Assembly (NCBI RefSeq): GCF_029851875.1
Contig: NZ_JARKVC010000010.1
Coordinates: 1 to 43,734, forward strand
Direction of reading: 5' to 3'
Origin: Actinomyces sp.
Lineage (GTDB): Bacteria > Actinomycetota > Actinomycetes > Actinomycetales > Actinomycetaceae
DNA length: 43,734 bases
Shown here: positions 1,340-33,007 of the stretch, in pieces
Layout: each line of letters opens with the position of its first letter
How positions within the stretch are numbered: the first letter of the stretch is position 1
Notes under the pieces: generated by a model
What the model was told of the DNA's origin: nothing
The model's input: the letters and a program-made list of their open reading frames with translations, nothing else
The model's database searches: none
Made by a program: the position numbers and the translations under genes

Positions 1340-2524
1340 ATGACCAAGCTGCGCGTCAAGACCCTCAATGCCATTTCCGCCAGCGGACTGACCCGGTTCC
1401 CTGCCGAGAGCTACGAGGTTGGAGAGGGTGTGGAGTCTCCCGACGCCTTGCTCGTGCGATCGGCCAAGCTGCACGACACCCCGATCCCCGAGTCCGTCCA
1501 GGCCATCGCCCGCGCCGGCGCCGGGACGAACAACATCCCTGTAGCCGAGATGACCAAGCGTGGTGTCCCTGTCTTCAACACCCCGGGTGCCAACGCCAAC
1601 GCGGTCAAGGAGCTGGTCCTGGCCGGTCTGTTCATCACCTCGCGCAACCTCATCCCCGCTGCCCGCTTTGCCCACGAGCTCTCGGGGACCGACGCCGAGA
1701 TCGCCAAGGCGGTGGAGGCCGGCAAGAAGCAGTTCGTCGGTTTTGAGCTGCCGGGGAAGACCCTCGGTGTCATCGGCCTGGGGGCGATTGGCGTGCGCGT
1801 GGCCAACGCGGCGCTCGGGCTCGGCCTGAAGGTGGTGGGCTACGACCCAGCCATCTCCGTGGACCATGCCTGGAACCTGTCGGCTGAGGTTGAGCGTGCG
1901 GAGTCGATGGAGGAGGTCTTCAAGCGGGCTGACATCCTCACGGTCCACGTTCCCCTCATTGACGCTACGCGTGGTCTCGTCTCTACCCAGCGCCTGGCGC
2001 TGATGAAGCACTCAGCAGTCATTCTCAACTTCGCCCGCCCCGAGATCGTGGACGAGACAGCGATTGTCTCCGCCCTCGACCAGGACTACCTGGCTGGTTA
2101 TGTCTGCGACTTCCCGTCGACGGCGGTTCACAAGCACCCCAAGTGCATCTCGCTACCTCACCTGGGCGCTTCCACCAAGGAGGCAGAGCGCAACTGCGCC
2201 GTCATGGCGGTGGATGAGCTGCGTGGCTTCCTGGAGGACGGCCAGATTCACAACTCGGTCAACTTCCCTGAGGCGGTCATGGCGCGTGAGCCAGGTACCT
2301 TCCGCCTGCTCATCGTCAACAAGAACGTGCCGAACGTGGTTGGTCAGGTCTCCACGATCGTCGCCCAGCGCGGACACAACATCGCCAACCTTCTTAACCG
2401 CTCGCGTGGTGAGCTGGCGGTGACTCTTGTTGACGTTGACGGTGAGGCGGATGCTCGGCTGGCTGAGGAGGTCCGCGGGATCGACGGCGTCCAGAGCGTA
2501 CGCCTGATCCCCGCGCGAGCCTGA
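1340..2524 (+). CDS. serA: D-3-phosphoglycerate dehydrogenase, short ACT-domain form
   Basis: Oxidises 3-phosphoglycerate to 3-phosphohydroxypyruvate with NAD, the committed step of serine synthesis. At 394 aa it is the short E. coli-like form, without the extra allosteric-substrate-binding domain of the ~530-aa mycobacterial type. The Rossmann motif GVIGLGAIGVRVA is near residues 140-152. The catalytic region includes the ARPEIVDE segment and H274 in PHLGAST. The last ~75 residues form an ACT domain (LLIVNKNVPNVVGQVSTIV), the expected site of serine feedback inhibition. A GGAAGGA ribosome site at 1328-1334 supports the ATG at 1340. A 413-bp non-coding stretch filled by a repeat array follows. 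Confidence 0.97.
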   Translation: MTKLRVKTLNAISASGLTRFPAESYEVGEGVESPDALLVRSAKLHDTPIPESVQAIARAGAGTNNIPVAEMTKRGVPVFNTPGANANAVKELVLAGLFITSRNLIPAARFAHELSGTDAEIAKAVEAGKKQFVGFELPGKTLGVIGLGAIGVRVANAALGLGLKVVGYDPAISVDHAWNLSAEVERAESMEEVFKRADILTVHVPLIDATRGLVSTQRLALMKHSAVILNFARPEIVDETAIVSALDQDYLAGYVCDFPSTAVHKHPKCISLPHLGASTKEAERNCAVMAVDELRGFLEDGQIHNSVNFPEAVMAREPGTFRLLIVNKNVPNVVGQVSTIVAQRGHNIANLLNRSRGELAVTLVDVDGEADARLAEEVRGIDGVQSVRLIPARA

Positions 2525-2579
2525 GACTGTGTGCGGGTGTGATCTCCTCGTGGGCCTGATGCCCATGAGGGCCTGAGAG

Positions 2580-2854
2580 GGCGTGCTTCCAGCACGGGGG
2601 CGTGGATCCGTGCCGTGGCGGCGTGCATCTATGTCGTGGCGGCGTGGGTGAAATCTGAGGGCGTGTCCTGATGCGTTGAGGGACACGCCCCCAGTGTCTT
2701 AACACGCCGCGACTAGGTGGAAGTACGCCGCCATCAGATGAATCCACGCCCCCACCTGGCCGGAGCACGCCCCGCTCAGGTGGGAGCACGCCTGCCTGGG
2801 CGAAAACACGCCGCGACTGGGCGAAAACACGCCCCGGCCAGGCGAAAGCACGCC
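2580..2854. repeat. Array of CACGCC hexamers at ~21-bp steps, inverted about a centre (copy 1)
   Basis: GGCGTG occurs at 2580, 2599, 2620, 2641 and 2660 (steps 19, 21, 21, 19). CACGCC (one copy TACGCC) occurs at 2684, 2703, 2724, 2745, 2766, 2787, 2807, 2828 and 2849 (steps 19, 21, 21, 21, 21, 20, 21, 21). The 30-nt centre, 2660-2689, is a hairpin with a 9-bp stem (GGCGTGTCC / GGACACGCC). Between hexamers the sequence is loosely conserved, with a tendency to end in GGAAG or GCGAAA. Reading outward from the centre, both arms show 5'-CACGCC. The array fills most of the serA-GH42 gap and ends about 10 bp before the -35 box of the GH42 gene. A second copy lies at 32758-33007. The function is unknown. 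Possible roles are a binding platform for a DNA-bending or condensing protein, or a transcribed structured element. Confidence 0.85.
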
Positions 2855-2937: not shown

Positions 2938-5055
2938 ATGACAAGCCCGATGACGAGCTCCGCGAACCGTCTCCTGTTCGGCGCGGCCTACTACGACGAG
3001 TACACCCCTGCCTCGGCGGGCGAGGACCGCCTCGAGCGCGACATGCAGATGATGGTCGAGGCTGGCTTCACCACGATCCGCATCGCCGAGTTCACCTGGG
3101 GCACCTGGAACCCCGCGCCCGGCGTCTTTGACTTCACCCACGTCGACCGCGCGATTGACGCCGCGGCCACCCATGGCCTGGACGTCATCATCGGCACCCC
3201 CACCGCCGCGGTGCCCACCTGGCTCGCCGCCCGCCACCCCGAGGTCATGGGCGTCAGCGCCCAGGGGACCCCCAACGGGTACGGTCCGCGCCAGAACATG
3301 GACATCACCGCCCCGGCCTACCGCTACTACGGCGAGCAGGCCATCCGCGCGCTCGTGGCCCACACCGCACCGCGGGACAACGTCGTCGGCTTTCAGCTCG
3401 ACAACGAGACGAAGTACTACGACGCCTACAACGTCGACATCCAACGCGCCTTTGTCGACTCCCTCAAGGAGCGCTTCGGCGGGGACCTCGACGCCCTCAA
3501 CGCCGCCTACGGCCTGAACTACTGGGCCAACCGGGTCAACGCCTGGGAAGAGTTCCCGGACGTCGCCCAGACGGTCAACGCCTCCCTGGCCGCCGCCTTC
3601 GACGCCTTTCGCCGCTCGCTGGTCACCGACTTCCTCCTGTGGCAGCGCGCCATCGTGGATGACTACCGCCGCGAGGACCAGTTCGTCACCCAGAACTTCG
3701 ACTACGAGTGGCGCGGCTACTCCTTCGGGATCCAGCCCGCCGTCGACCACTTCAAGGCGGCCGAGGCCGTCACCCTGGCCGGGGTCGACATCTACCACCC
3801 CACCGAGGACCAGCTCACCGGCAAGGAGATCGCCTTTGGCGGGGACATCAACCGCGCCCTCAAGGACGGCGCTCCCTACCTGGTCCTGGAGACCGAGGCC
3901 CAGGGGCAGATGGGCTGGCTGCCCTACCCCGGTCAGCTGCGCCTGCAGGCATACTCCCACCTGGCCTCTGGCGCCATGGGCGTCATGTACTGGCACTGGG
4001 GATCGATCCACAACTCCTTCGAGACCTACTGGAAGGGCCTGGTCTCCCAGGACTACTCCGCCAACCCCACCTACCTGGAGGCTGCTCGCTTCGGCGCGGA
4101 GGTCAAGGAGCACGCCGCGTCGCTGGCGGGGCTGACCAAGTGCAACAAGATCGCCGTCATGGTCTCCAACGAGGCCTACACGGCCCTGGAGTGGTTCTCC
4201 ATCGACTCCGGCTTCCCACGCCGTGTCAGCGGTGGCGGCGCCAGCTACAACGACGTCTTCCGCCTAGTCTACGACGCCCTCTTCGAGGCCAACCTCGAGG
4301 CTGACATCGTGCCCGCTGACGCCCCGGCCGAGCGTCTGGCCCGCTACGACGTCCTGCTCACCCCGGCCCTGTACGTCACACCCCAGGAGACCATCGCCAA
4401 CCTGCGTTCCTTCGTTGAGGGCGGAGGCCACCTGGTGACCACCTTCCGCACTGCCGTCGCCGATGAGAACGTCCAGGTCTTCACTGACCGCCAGCCCCAC
4501 GGACTGTCCGACCTGCTCGGTCTGGGCACCGACCAGTTCACGCGGCCCGACGGCGTCCGCCTGGCCCCTGCGGGCGCTCTTGCCGCCGCCCTTCCTGAGG
4601 GCACGGACCTGGGGCTGACACACTTCATGGAGCTGATGACCCCGATAGAGGGGGTCGACGACGTCGAGGTCCTGGCGACCTACGACCACCACGCCTGGTC
4701 CGGCCCGGCGATCGCGACCCGCGCCGTCGGTTCCGGCTCCGTCACCCACCTGGCTACCTGGGCCAGCCCCGAGGTGGTGCGCGCCGTCGTCACGCTCGTG
4801 GCTGAGCGAGCGGGCGTGACGGACTGGGCCGGCGAGCTTGCCGGCCAGGTGACCGTGCGCAAGGGCGTCAACGGCGCCGGCCGCTCGCTGGCCTACTTCC
4901 TGCGCTACAGCCACGTGCCCGTCACCCTCACCCTCCCGGTAGGCGGCACCGACGTGCTGGGCACCCTCGGCGAGGCCGGTGCCCTTGTGCCGGCGGGCAC
5001 CACCATGACGCTGCCCGGCTGGGGGGTGCTCGCCCTGGAGGGGGAGCAGGCCTGA
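2938..5055 (+). CDS. GH42 beta-galactosidase
   Basis: An intracellular glycoside hydrolase family 42 enzyme that removes beta-linked galactose from the non-reducing end of oligosaccharides. At 705 aa it has the usual size: a TIM barrel from about residue 8 (LLFGAAYYDEY), a trimerisation domain with a class I glutamine-amidotransferase-like fold, and a C-terminal beta domain. The proton donor is E157 in FQLDNETKYY. The nucleophile is most likely E318 in LVLETEAQGQ. There is no signal peptide, so substrates must be imported, which fits the MFS sugar carrier at 7382-8710. AGGAGG at 2927-2932 selects the ATG at 2938. The upstream palindrome implies control by the TetR protein at 6655-7296. The exact linkage preference cannot be read from sequence; the GH30 partner suggests beta-1,6 or beta-1,3 galacto-oligosaccharides. 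Confidence 0.93.
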   Translation: MTSPMTSSANRLLFGAAYYDEYTPASAGEDRLERDMQMMVEAGFTTIRIAEFTWGTWNPAPGVFDFTHVDRAIDAAATHGLDVIIGTPTAAVPTWLAARHPEVMGVSAQGTPNGYGPRQNMDITAPAYRYYGEQAIRALVAHTAPRDNVVGFQLDNETKYYDAYNVDIQRAFVDSLKERFGGDLDALNAAYGLNYWANRVNAWEEFPDVAQTVNASLAAAFDAFRRSLVTDFLLWQRAIVDDYRREDQFVTQNFDYEWRGYSFGIQPAVDHFKAAEAVTLAGVDIYHPTEDQLTGKEIAFGGDINRALKDGAPYLVLETEAQGQMGWLPYPGQLRLQAYSHLASGAMGVMYWHWGSIHNSFETYWKGLVSQDYSANPTYLEAARFGAEVKEHAASLAGLTKCNKIAVMVSNEAYTALEWFSIDSGFPRRVSGGGASYNDVFRLVYDALFEANLEADIVPADAPAERLARYDVLLTPALYVTPQETIANLRSFVEGGGHLVTTFRTAVADENVQVFTDRQPHGLSDLLGLGTDQFTRPDGVRLAPAGALAAALPEGTDLGLTHFMELMTPIEGVDDVEVLATYDHHAWSGPAIATRAVGSGSVTHLATWASPEVVRAVVTLVAERAGVTDWAGELAGQVTVRKGVNGAGRSLAYFLRYSHVPVTLTLPVGGTDVLGTLGEAGALVPAGTTMTLPGWGVLALEGEQA

Positions 5056-8896: not shown

Positions 8897-10237
8897 ATGC
8901 GCCTGACCGAGGACCTCAAGGACCTTGCCTCTGTCCGAGCCTTTCGGCTGCTGCTCGCCGTCAGGCTCGTGTCCCAGAGCGGTGACGGCATGGTCCAGGC
9001 AGGGCTGGCCACCCTCTTCTTCTTCCAGCCCCAGAACATGACCACCGCCAGCGGGGTCGCCTGGGCGCTGGTGGTCATGCTGCTGCCCTTCAGCATCGTC
9101 GGCCCTGTCGCCGGGCCCTTCATCGACCGCTGGCGGCGGCGCGACACCCTCGTGGTCGGCAACCTCCTGCGCGCCGGCCTCATTGCCGTCACCGCCCTGG
9201 TCCTGCGCCAGTGGGGGATCGGGGCGGCCGTCTACGTCCTGGTCCTCGTGGCGCTCGGGATCAACCGCTTCCTGCTGTCGGTACTGTCTGCAGGCCTGCC
9301 TCAGGTCATTGATCACAGGCGTCTGCTGGTGGCCAACTCCCTCGTACCCACCCTGGGCGGGGCGGCGACGGCGATTGGTGCCGTGATCGGCGTCGTCCTG
9401 CGCCTGGTCCTGCCAGCCGGAGGCGTGCAGGACAGCGCGAGCCTGGCCTGCGCCGTCGTCCTGTACGTGGGCGCCGCCGCGGTGGTGGCTCGGCTCGGGC
9501 GTGAGGGGCTGGGGCCGCAGCGCCGCCAGCAGGGGAAGGGACTGGGGCGGGCGCTGGTTCGGACGGTCGGGGACCTGGCCGACGCCGTGCGCTACCTGGT
9601 CCGGCGCGGGACTCCGGGGCTGGCACTGAGCACCATGGCCCTGCACCGCTTCGTCTACGGCATGGAGCTCATCACCCTCATCCTCACCTCTCGCAACCTC
9701 CTGGCCCCCGGTGGCGACGCCGATGCGGGCCTGGCCGTCTTCGGCACCCTCATGGGGGCGATGGTGGCAGGCCACGGTCTGTCCGTGCTGCTTACCCCAC
9801 TGGCTCACGAGCGGATCGCGCCCTCGACGTGGATCGTGTGCTGCCTGCTGGGAGGCACGGTGGGCCAGCTCGTCCTCGTGATCACGCACCAGCAGCTGGC
9901 GATGACGATCGGCATCTTCATCTTCGGCGTGGGTGTGCAGGGTGCGAAGATCGCCGTCGACACGATCGTCCAGGCCGACACTGACGACGCCTACCGAGGC
10001 CGGGCCTTCTCCATCTACGACGTCCTGTTCAACACCGCCGAGTGCGCGGCGGCCGGCGTGGCGGTCCTCGTGCTGCCAGACACCGGCTGGTCGCGGGCCG
10101 TCCAGGCCCTGCTCGTGGTCTTCGTGTGGTGCGTGGCCGCGTGGTACGGCCGCGGGGTGCGGCGTCTAGGAGGCCGGCCGCGGCACGTGACAGGACTGGC
10201 GGGCCTGGAGGGCTCGGAGGGTTTGGGGCGGGCCTGA
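8897..10237 (+). CDS. MFS transporter, exporter-like
   Basis: A 446-aa membrane protein with about 12 hydrophobic helices. It has the MFS cytoplasmic loop FIDRWRRRDTLVVGNLLRA after helix 2. This loop and the overall layout resemble the EntS / macrolide-efflux-like MFS group rather than sugar symporters. The substrate is unknown. The frame opens at 8786, but the upstream residues lack membrane character, and GGGAGG at 8883-8888 supports the ATG at 8897. The gene is divergent from the MFS-tetR transcript and is not obviously part of the sugar module. Confidence 0.8.
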   Translation: MRLTEDLKDLASVRAFRLLLAVRLVSQSGDGMVQAGLATLFFFQPQNMTTASGVAWALVVMLLPFSIVGPVAGPFIDRWRRRDTLVVGNLLRAGLIAVTALVLRQWGIGAAVYVLVLVALGINRFLLSVLSAGLPQVIDHRRLLVANSLVPTLGGAATAIGAVIGVVLRLVLPAGGVQDSASLACAVVLYVGAAAVVARLGREGLGPQRRQQGKGLGRALVRTVGDLADAVRYLVRRGTPGLALSTMALHRFVYGMELITLILTSRNLLAPGGDADAGLAVFGTLMGAMVAGHGLSVLLTPLAHERIAPSTWIVCCLLGGTVGQLVLVITHQQLAMTIGIFIFGVGVQGAKIAVDTIVQADTDDAYRGRAFSIYDVLFNTAECAAAGVAVLVLPDTGWSRAVQALLVVFVWCVAAWYGRGVRRLGGRPRHVTGLAGLEGSEGLGRA

Positions 10238-32757: not shown

Positions 32758-33007
32758 GGCGTGCTTCCCAGGTATGGGCGTGCTTCCAGGGTGTGGCGGC
32801 GTGTTTCCACGGTGCCGTGGCGTGCGTGGGATGTGAGGGCGTTCGTCAGGACGTTTGTAGACACGCCGTCAAGATGGAAGTACGCCGCCCTAGGGTGTAA
32901 ATACGCCTTCTCGAGGCGTAGGCACGCCCCTAGGGTGTAAGTACGCCTTCTCAGGGTTGTAGGCACGCTCCCAGAATGTATCTACGCCCTCAGGACGTAG
33001 ACACGCC
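32758..33007. repeat. Array of CACGCC hexamers at 19-22-bp steps, inverted about a centre (copy 2)
   Basis: GGCGTG at 32758, 32777, 32798 and 32819, and GGCGTT at 32838 (steps 19, 21, 21, 19), are followed by CACGCC/TACGCC/CACGCT at 32862, 32881, 32902, 32923, 32942, 32964, 32983 and 33002 (steps 19, 21, 21, 19, 22, 19, 19). The 30-nt centre (32838-32867) has the same length as that of copy 1, and the five left-arm positions have identical spacing. Units tend to read CACGCC, a variable stretch, then CTGGAAG or GGTGTAAG. It fills the gap between hxlR and the amylosucrase gene. Together with copy 1 it defines a repeat family of unknown role. Confidence 0.85.

Follow-up and report, generated by a model that had tools for sequence, protein, structure and literature searches.

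The window examined here, a 43,734-nt stretch of DNA from an Actinomyces species, holds a regular array of a six-base word in the gap between a serA-like gene and a gene encoding a GH42 beta-galactosidase. The locus raises the question of what is kept in such an array: sites on double-stranded DNA, pairing in a transcript, or the copies of a mobile or slipping repeat.

A mirrored array of a six-base word between two genes

The relevant features of the window are listed below.

1340..2524, plus strand: serA-like gene (D-2-hydroxyacid dehydrogenase family), upstream of the array, which begins 55 bp past its end
2546..2570, plus strand: separate short hairpin seen by eye (stems 2546-2555 and 2561-2570), located past the serA-like stop codon and ahead of the array
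2580..2665, minus strand: left arm, five GGCGTG words at 2580, 2599, 2620, 2641, and 2660 (steps 19, 21, 21, 19)
2660..2689, unstranded: dyad center, GGCGTG-N18-CACGCC, a 30-bp imperfect palindrome
2684..2854, plus strand: right arm, nine YACGCC words at 2684, 2703, 2724 (TACGCC), 2745, 2766, 2787, 2807, 2828, and 2849
2938..5055, plus strand: GH42 beta-galactosidase gene, downstream of the array
32758..33007, unstranded: second array of the same family (family A), four GGCGTG words on the left and YACGCC words on the right

The initial annotation described 14 hexamers at steps of 19-21 bp, five as GGCGTG to the left and nine to the right of a 30-nt hairpin center. All five left-hand and all nine right-hand words were found where it had placed them, and the spacing held within the arms. 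Two details differed: the third right-hand word reads TACGCC while the other eight read CACGCC, so we write the motif as YACGCC, and the step between word starts is 24 bp across the center. The central palindrome is present but imperfect, and the arms show 71% complementarity over 73 nt. At steps of 19-21 bp, the longest chain comprises nine words, whereas a set of 100 first-order Markov copies made from the window gave at most two words (12 copies) and otherwise one (88 copies). The array is real and lies far above chance. The array had also been said to end right at the GH42 promoter. A promoter-like match does lie between the array and the GH42 gene (2863-2892), but the start codon of the GH42 open reading frame is 83 bp beyond the array end.

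Several identities could be set aside directly. In CRISPR loci, unique spacers separate repeats of some 23-50 bp that share one orientation; the six-base word, the spacers of 13 or 15 bases, and the two orientations of the 2580-2854 array rule them out. A microsatellite was also rejected. A step of 21 bp would correspond to seven codons of a coding repeat, yet the 19-bp steps break the frame.

Distribution of the array family

We searched the 2.45-Mb genome to which the window belongs (G000, 47 contigs) for spaced words. A paired-word pattern gave 82 + 60 matches, compared with 6 + 3 for the same pattern read backward, and a triple-word pattern gave 47 + 25 = 72 matches, compared with none for the reversed control. 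By our own count, this corresponds to about 24 family A arrays, with the ends of contigs C22 and C43 taken as one array. These ends (positions 1-127 of both L078 and L087) have 127 bp in common, so that the assembly breaks inside an array, and the two contigs probably join within it.

Two sister genomes also gave triple-word matches (39 in G007 and 9 in G044), and any such match was found in 12 of 49 genomes of the genus. The nine non-sister genomes among these are G009, G010, G019, G021, G024, G025, G030, G041, and G047. Eight loci from six of them (G010, G024, G025, G030, G041, and G047) contained other repeats and no family A array, while the matches in G009, G019, and G021 are known as matched strings only. 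Among these six genomes, G030 has three CACGCC units 19 bp apart in a single orientation beside a GC-rich hairpin (L046), which may be distantly related to family A. A four-word family A pattern had no match in a genome-contig collection that may lack records of the window itself or of its closest kin. The same pattern matched 2 of 213 genomes of the taxonomic family, both from the window's genus, and it misses G044 despite the few arrays there. The search of related genomes that the initial annotation proposed thus returned the spaced pattern in multiple copies in G000, outside predicted genes, and in two sister genomes. Word and spacing are conserved as well (below). The array is not a gene fragment that was duplicated and then decayed.

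Geometry and conservation of the word

The center, GGCGTR-N18-YACGCC, could be read by pattern in 28 family A arrays; the others have a degenerate center word (for example, 32758-33007) or a center step of 25 (L095). Outward from the dyad, the steps run 24 across the center, then 19, 21, and 21 or 19. The first left step is 19 in 28/28 arrays and the first right step in 27/28. After five close copies were dropped, the left and right arms agreed at step 1 in 22 of 23 arrays and again at step 2 in 22 of 23; agreement past the second step was not significant, being reached by 179 of 2,000 shuffles. The logo of the units (80 of 19 bp and 159 of 21 bp) shows YACGCC followed by S-Y-S-A. An A also marks the third position ahead of the next word, and the remaining positions are nearly free. 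Arms reach up to 12 units.

Ten arrays were aligned with the array at the same site in a sister genome, eight in G007 and two in G044. With the core taken as five bases and the first base of the word counted apart, 12 of 374 core positions differed, compared with 191 of 1,018 in spacers and 352 of 2,285 in flanks (Fisher P = 5e-16), a comparison in which the aligner could favor words. The one array aligned gap-free inside the array (L075) had differences at 0 of 40 core and 15 of 100 spacer positions. The first base of the word differed in 9 of 74 cases. Per-position profiles anchored on either species gave 12/379 and 5/336 differences in the core, with smaller dips at positions -3 and +9. Since the core changes far less than spacers and flanks at orthologous sites, the word of family A is, on this comparison, under selection in place. 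The proposal that spacing and hexamer are conserved while spacers vary is thus borne out by both the family geometry and the orthologs.

Placement relative to genes

Using our own codon-based gene predictions, we found all 36 family A detections (34 loci) outside predicted genes. Among the 34 with both neighbors, 23 lay between co-directional genes, 10 between convergent genes, and one between divergent genes. By comparison, among gaps between genes of 100 bp or more, 72 of 298 were divergent in 20 other species (Fisher P = 0.003), as were 27 of 135 within the array loci themselves (P = 0.018); the placement points are not independent, because orthologous arrays were counted separately and L078 and L087 are one array. 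Convergent placement was borderline enriched (10/34 versus 46/298, P = 0.052), and the distance from stop codons varied from 17 bp to several hundred. Family A arrays avoid divergent promoters.

Arrays of other words in other species

G044 also carries arrays of CGCTACCC/GGGTAGCG with a step of 20 and a center step of 24 (51 pair matches versus 0 in the control). Arrays of GGTTGGACC (family C) occur in G010, G024, and G041, with steps mostly of 19-21 and a center of 30. In two G010 loci (L041 and L053), the GGTTGGACC arrays lie inside an element with TIR-like ends (CTAGGTC.TGTTGTGTAAGT in L041). The pattern TCGACCG-N12-TCGACCG-N20-CGGTCGA, searched on both strands, gave 53 matches in G026, 3 in G011, and 40 in G012 (control, 0), and a mirrored four-word TCGACCG form was found in one record of the genome-contig collection, from Actinomyces haliotis JCM 18848. 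By eye, we identified further words at steps of about 19-22: GGTTCGTAC (G024 and G035), GATGAACGC (G034), GACGAGCC (G030), CTCACA (G043), and GCGAGACCGGT (G016).

A six-letter detector run on 20 other species returned 22 inverted matches, 11 of which were judged by eye to be elements; shuffled DNA gave five. A seven-letter detector, applied to 799 kb from 20 other species of the genus, returned eight matches at steps of 17-23 (in G016, G026, G034, and G035). Seven of the eight look real, and the match at 9993 in G016 looks like chance. Across nine step windows, this detector gave 8 matches at 17-23, 4 at 13-19 (the 19-bp ones of G026 again), 1 at 30-36, and none in the other six. It found no arrays outside the genus, where it was run on 316 kb drawn from 20 genomes (less than 11 kb each for five of these). 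Taken together, these sequence comparisons show what we read as one layout class shared by several of the genus's species: the word is particular to each species group, and the dyad and a spacing of about 20 bp are kept.

The 72-bp elements of G026 (n = 27) resemble family A in placement: 11 are convergent, 14 co-directional, one has a single neighbor, and one lies inside a predicted gene, so that none of the 25 with both neighbors is divergent. Where a stop codon faces them, it lies a median of 31 nt away; for start codons, the median is 110 nt. For G012, which shares the TCGACCG word, we read seven elements; two of six with both neighbors are divergent, and the distances to genes range between 153 and 990 bp. 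At four G012 loci (L311, L312, L315, and L316), an IS of about 1,335 bp encoding an rve transposase directly adjoins a repeat of about 370 bp, always at the same end. This repeat holds the TCGACCG element, and the arrangement looks as if the IS targets it.

RNA pairing and recognition of double-stranded DNA

Folded as RNA, the array strand reaches -213 kcal/mol (z = -10 versus shuffles); good folding of the strand is expected because the array is inverted. The fold nonetheless agrees with a terminator built as one long RNA hairpin or as several, in which the transcripts of the arms would pair word to word and end transcription in both directions. The avoidance of divergent promoters and the nearness of the G026 elements to stop codons point the same way. 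Covariation offers a little more: in the first spacer, it was slight (P = 0.04 with all 27 rows included; with the 7 nonredundant rows, 0.14 or 0.04 depending on the measure), and the paired fraction there was reached by 10 of 2,000 shuffles. This slight signal speaks for RNA or for quasi-palindrome repair. Pairing might also be needed by the words only.

The remaining observations argue against a terminator. No covariation was found at the center (P = 0.31 with all 27 rows included and 0.29 with the 7 nonredundant ones), nor between the arms of the 27 G026 elements (0.710 versus 0.700 and 0.844 versus 0.836), where only the spacers are informative because the search pattern demanded invariant words, and where lost pairing could be explained by neutral decay after spread. 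In co-directional arrays, facing words with mixed first bases formed A.C as often as G.U (12 and 11, counted). The arms are unequal and change apart: at the serA-GH42 site, the unit counts of the two arms are 4 and 8 for G000, 4 and 2 for G007, and about one each for G044. Within 2480-2960, terminator-like matches numbered none on the plus strand and one, weak, on the minus strand (5-bp stem), and the serA-like stop codon already has its own separate hairpin. We consider such a terminator unlikely. Because the arms are unequal, A.C is not avoided, and the center lacks covariation, recognition of double-stranded DNA is favored, and the evidence favors the view that RNA pairing is not what is kept in the arrays.

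Two more specific RNA identities were not supported. For an intrinsic terminator (a hairpin followed by a T-run), the sole match within 2480-2960 is on the minus strand, and both neighboring genes are on the plus strand. A known structured RNA was rejected, the array having no Rfam match: Rfam gave none in the window, and the 10 matches among 15 array-bearing loci were all tRNAs.

Dispersal and turnover of arrays

Arrays about 75-93% identical to one another occur at unrelated sites (L071, L072, L074, L078/L087, and L086), with homology limited to the array region. When 15 further G000 array sites were sought in the sisters, 14 were found in each; by the detector, a family A array was present at three of those in G007 and at one of those in G044. 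These counts cover loci extending no more than 1.5 kb beyond the probe, and the detector misses degenerate remnants such as the window's second array in G044. Several sister sites are short intergenic stretches without any array, and at 3 of the 14 G044 sites (L170, L174, and L154), a CGCTACCC array stands in place of family A. As judged from these sites, arrays change unit number and disperse.

Such behavior could mark a non-autonomous mobile repeat of MITE or REP type, whose words would be transposase or recombinase sites with no host use. Near-copies at unrelated places, homology ending at the array region, and sister sites lacking the family A array all suit this explanation, as do the distinct outermost units (n = 53: GCCA 29, GCGA 5, CCCA 4), in which the GCCA tetramer is found in 29 of 53 compared with 45 of 247 inner units, and the location of family C, by eye, within a TIR-bounded element in L041. 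A dead copy, however, is not predicted to keep its words at orthologous sites while the spacers drift. No Y1 transposase (PF01797) was found in eight genomes, while controls matched in 5 of 14. The picture for rve transposases is mixed: G010 has none and G007 and G044 have weak partial matches, but G000 has three over the cut-off and G012 and G026 have many. In view of the first three of these genomes, an rve transposase was rejected as the general cause. We saw no clean target-site duplication by eye, at sister sites too diverged to show one. On balance, a purely mobile repeat seems improbable to us.

Neutral tandem slippage from a small palindromic seed, leaving a functionless array, would fit the differing unit numbers of orthologs and the greater likeness of units within an arm (0.592) than between opposite arms (0.451 and 0.438). 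It does not fit words conserved in place, a fixed 24|19|21 geometry, or the similar geometry of arrays made of other words, and we regard it as very improbable. The unit count alone may be neutral.

Comparison with known repeat systems

REPs are described, in one report (PMC3733652), as dispersed and intergenic, with some of them species-specific; most are located downstream of a gene, in gaps flanked by convergent or co-directional genes. That report and a second (PMC8266576) give them as 20-40 bp hairpins tagged GTAG or CGTC, the GTAG types being tied to single-strand-acting Y1 transposases. The arrays are likewise intergenic (36/36) and rarely divergent (1/34). They differ in that their outermost tetramer is mostly GCCA and that they consist of short words near 20 bp apart in long arms. 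Neither tag is among the eight commonest outermost tetramers, which cover 45 of the 53 family A outermost units. A REP/BIME with RAYT was rejected on these ends and on the lack of a Y1 transposase in the eight genomes. The initial view that the array is unlike a CRISPR, a microsatellite, or a known REP has stood, given the word size, the two orientations, and ends without REP tags.

In theta plasmids, iterons recur in direct orientation every 19-22 bp or so along the same helix face, and Rep dimers bind inverted half sites. The arrays are phased alike, whereas they are chromosomal, in two dozen places, and have mirrored arms. No Rep_3 domain (PF01051) was found in eight genomes, and an iteron array was rejected on the absence of this initiator. 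Blastn of the 2580-2854 array against 72,556 plasmid records and against phage gave no match, and a phage or plasmid origin was rejected on that basis. By the tests made, the arrays resemble REP/BIME in placement and iterons in phasing and belong to neither.

Ends of the Tn7, Tn5053, or Mu type carry several transposase sites per end, spaced about 19-22 bp and inverted between ends. The arrays, in contrast, enclose no genes, have arms of up to 12 units, and show selection in place, and G010 has no rve transposase. Uptake words of Neisseria and Pasteurellaceae are described, in one report (PMC1852404), as short, group-specific, and found as inverted pairs after genes. These are enriched singly genome-wide, whereas the array words are phased in arrays. 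A DNA uptake word was rejected because the window has no strong excess of single words outside arrays (74 versus 63.2 expected, SD 7.8). In the open-licence PMC literature, we found no description of such arrays among the matches listed.

A candidate docking platform for a cooperative protein

Of the three readings first offered for the array (a platform for a cooperative DNA-binding protein, a chromosome-organization site, or a structured RNA), the protein platform fits best, and the structured RNA is weakened by the unequal arms and the near lack of covariation. We hold with about even confidence that the array is a double-stranded-DNA docking platform for a cooperative protein, located between genes and acting as a roadblock, insulator, or organizer. 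In this model, a sequence-specific protein would bind each unit with a footprint of about AnrYACGCCsyca. Since the units are about two turns apart, bound copies would sit side by side on one helix face, with the arms facing away from the dyad. The two-turn sites, the dyad, the kept word, the free spacers, and a first base that can be either pyrimidine, C or T, with a purine opposite it, suggest a major-groove reader acting from one face. Judging by where the arrays lie, the platform's most likely role would be that of a nucleoprotein roadblock or an insulator close to the ends of genes, or else of a chromosome-organizing site. Binding, cooperativity, and this role are all inferred from sequence.

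Several observations sit uneasily with a protein platform. One word per species group would demand fast-changing specificity or several proteins, and dispersal with distinct outer ends suits a mobile repeat too. The fold (z = -10) and the slight first-spacer covariation also count against it, as do the G012 elements, which lie far from genes and are divergent in 2 of 6 cases.

More tentatively, and with well under even confidence, we suggest that the arrays form a new class of chromosomal platform in the genus, read by one conserved protein architecture, in which the word is swapped between species and the geometry stays constant. The CGCTACCC arrays that replace family A at 3 of 14 G044 sites look as though the site mattered rather than the word. 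In this view, the word would evolve like a dialect while the geometry stays, and this type of dispersed intergenic repeat would be set by geometry and not by sequence. A short word would be under measurable selection and yet turn over rapidly among close relatives. Bacterial gene ends might then be insulated by a DNA-bound protein rather than by RNA hairpins, a testable proposal that opens the questions of how binding specificity shifts genome-wide and which protein reads the arrays.

Two other features were seen near genes of this locus. Ahead of the GH42 gene, the near-perfect palindrome TATCTAGTAACTACTAGATA (2890-2909), identical in G007 and G044, is probably an operator. Downstream of the serA-like gene in G047, L125 has a long near-perfect hairpin (TGTGCATTTTGGCTTGACTGGTGCC...), and ACTGGTGC stretches resembling it occur in L085 (G000) and L121 (G043).
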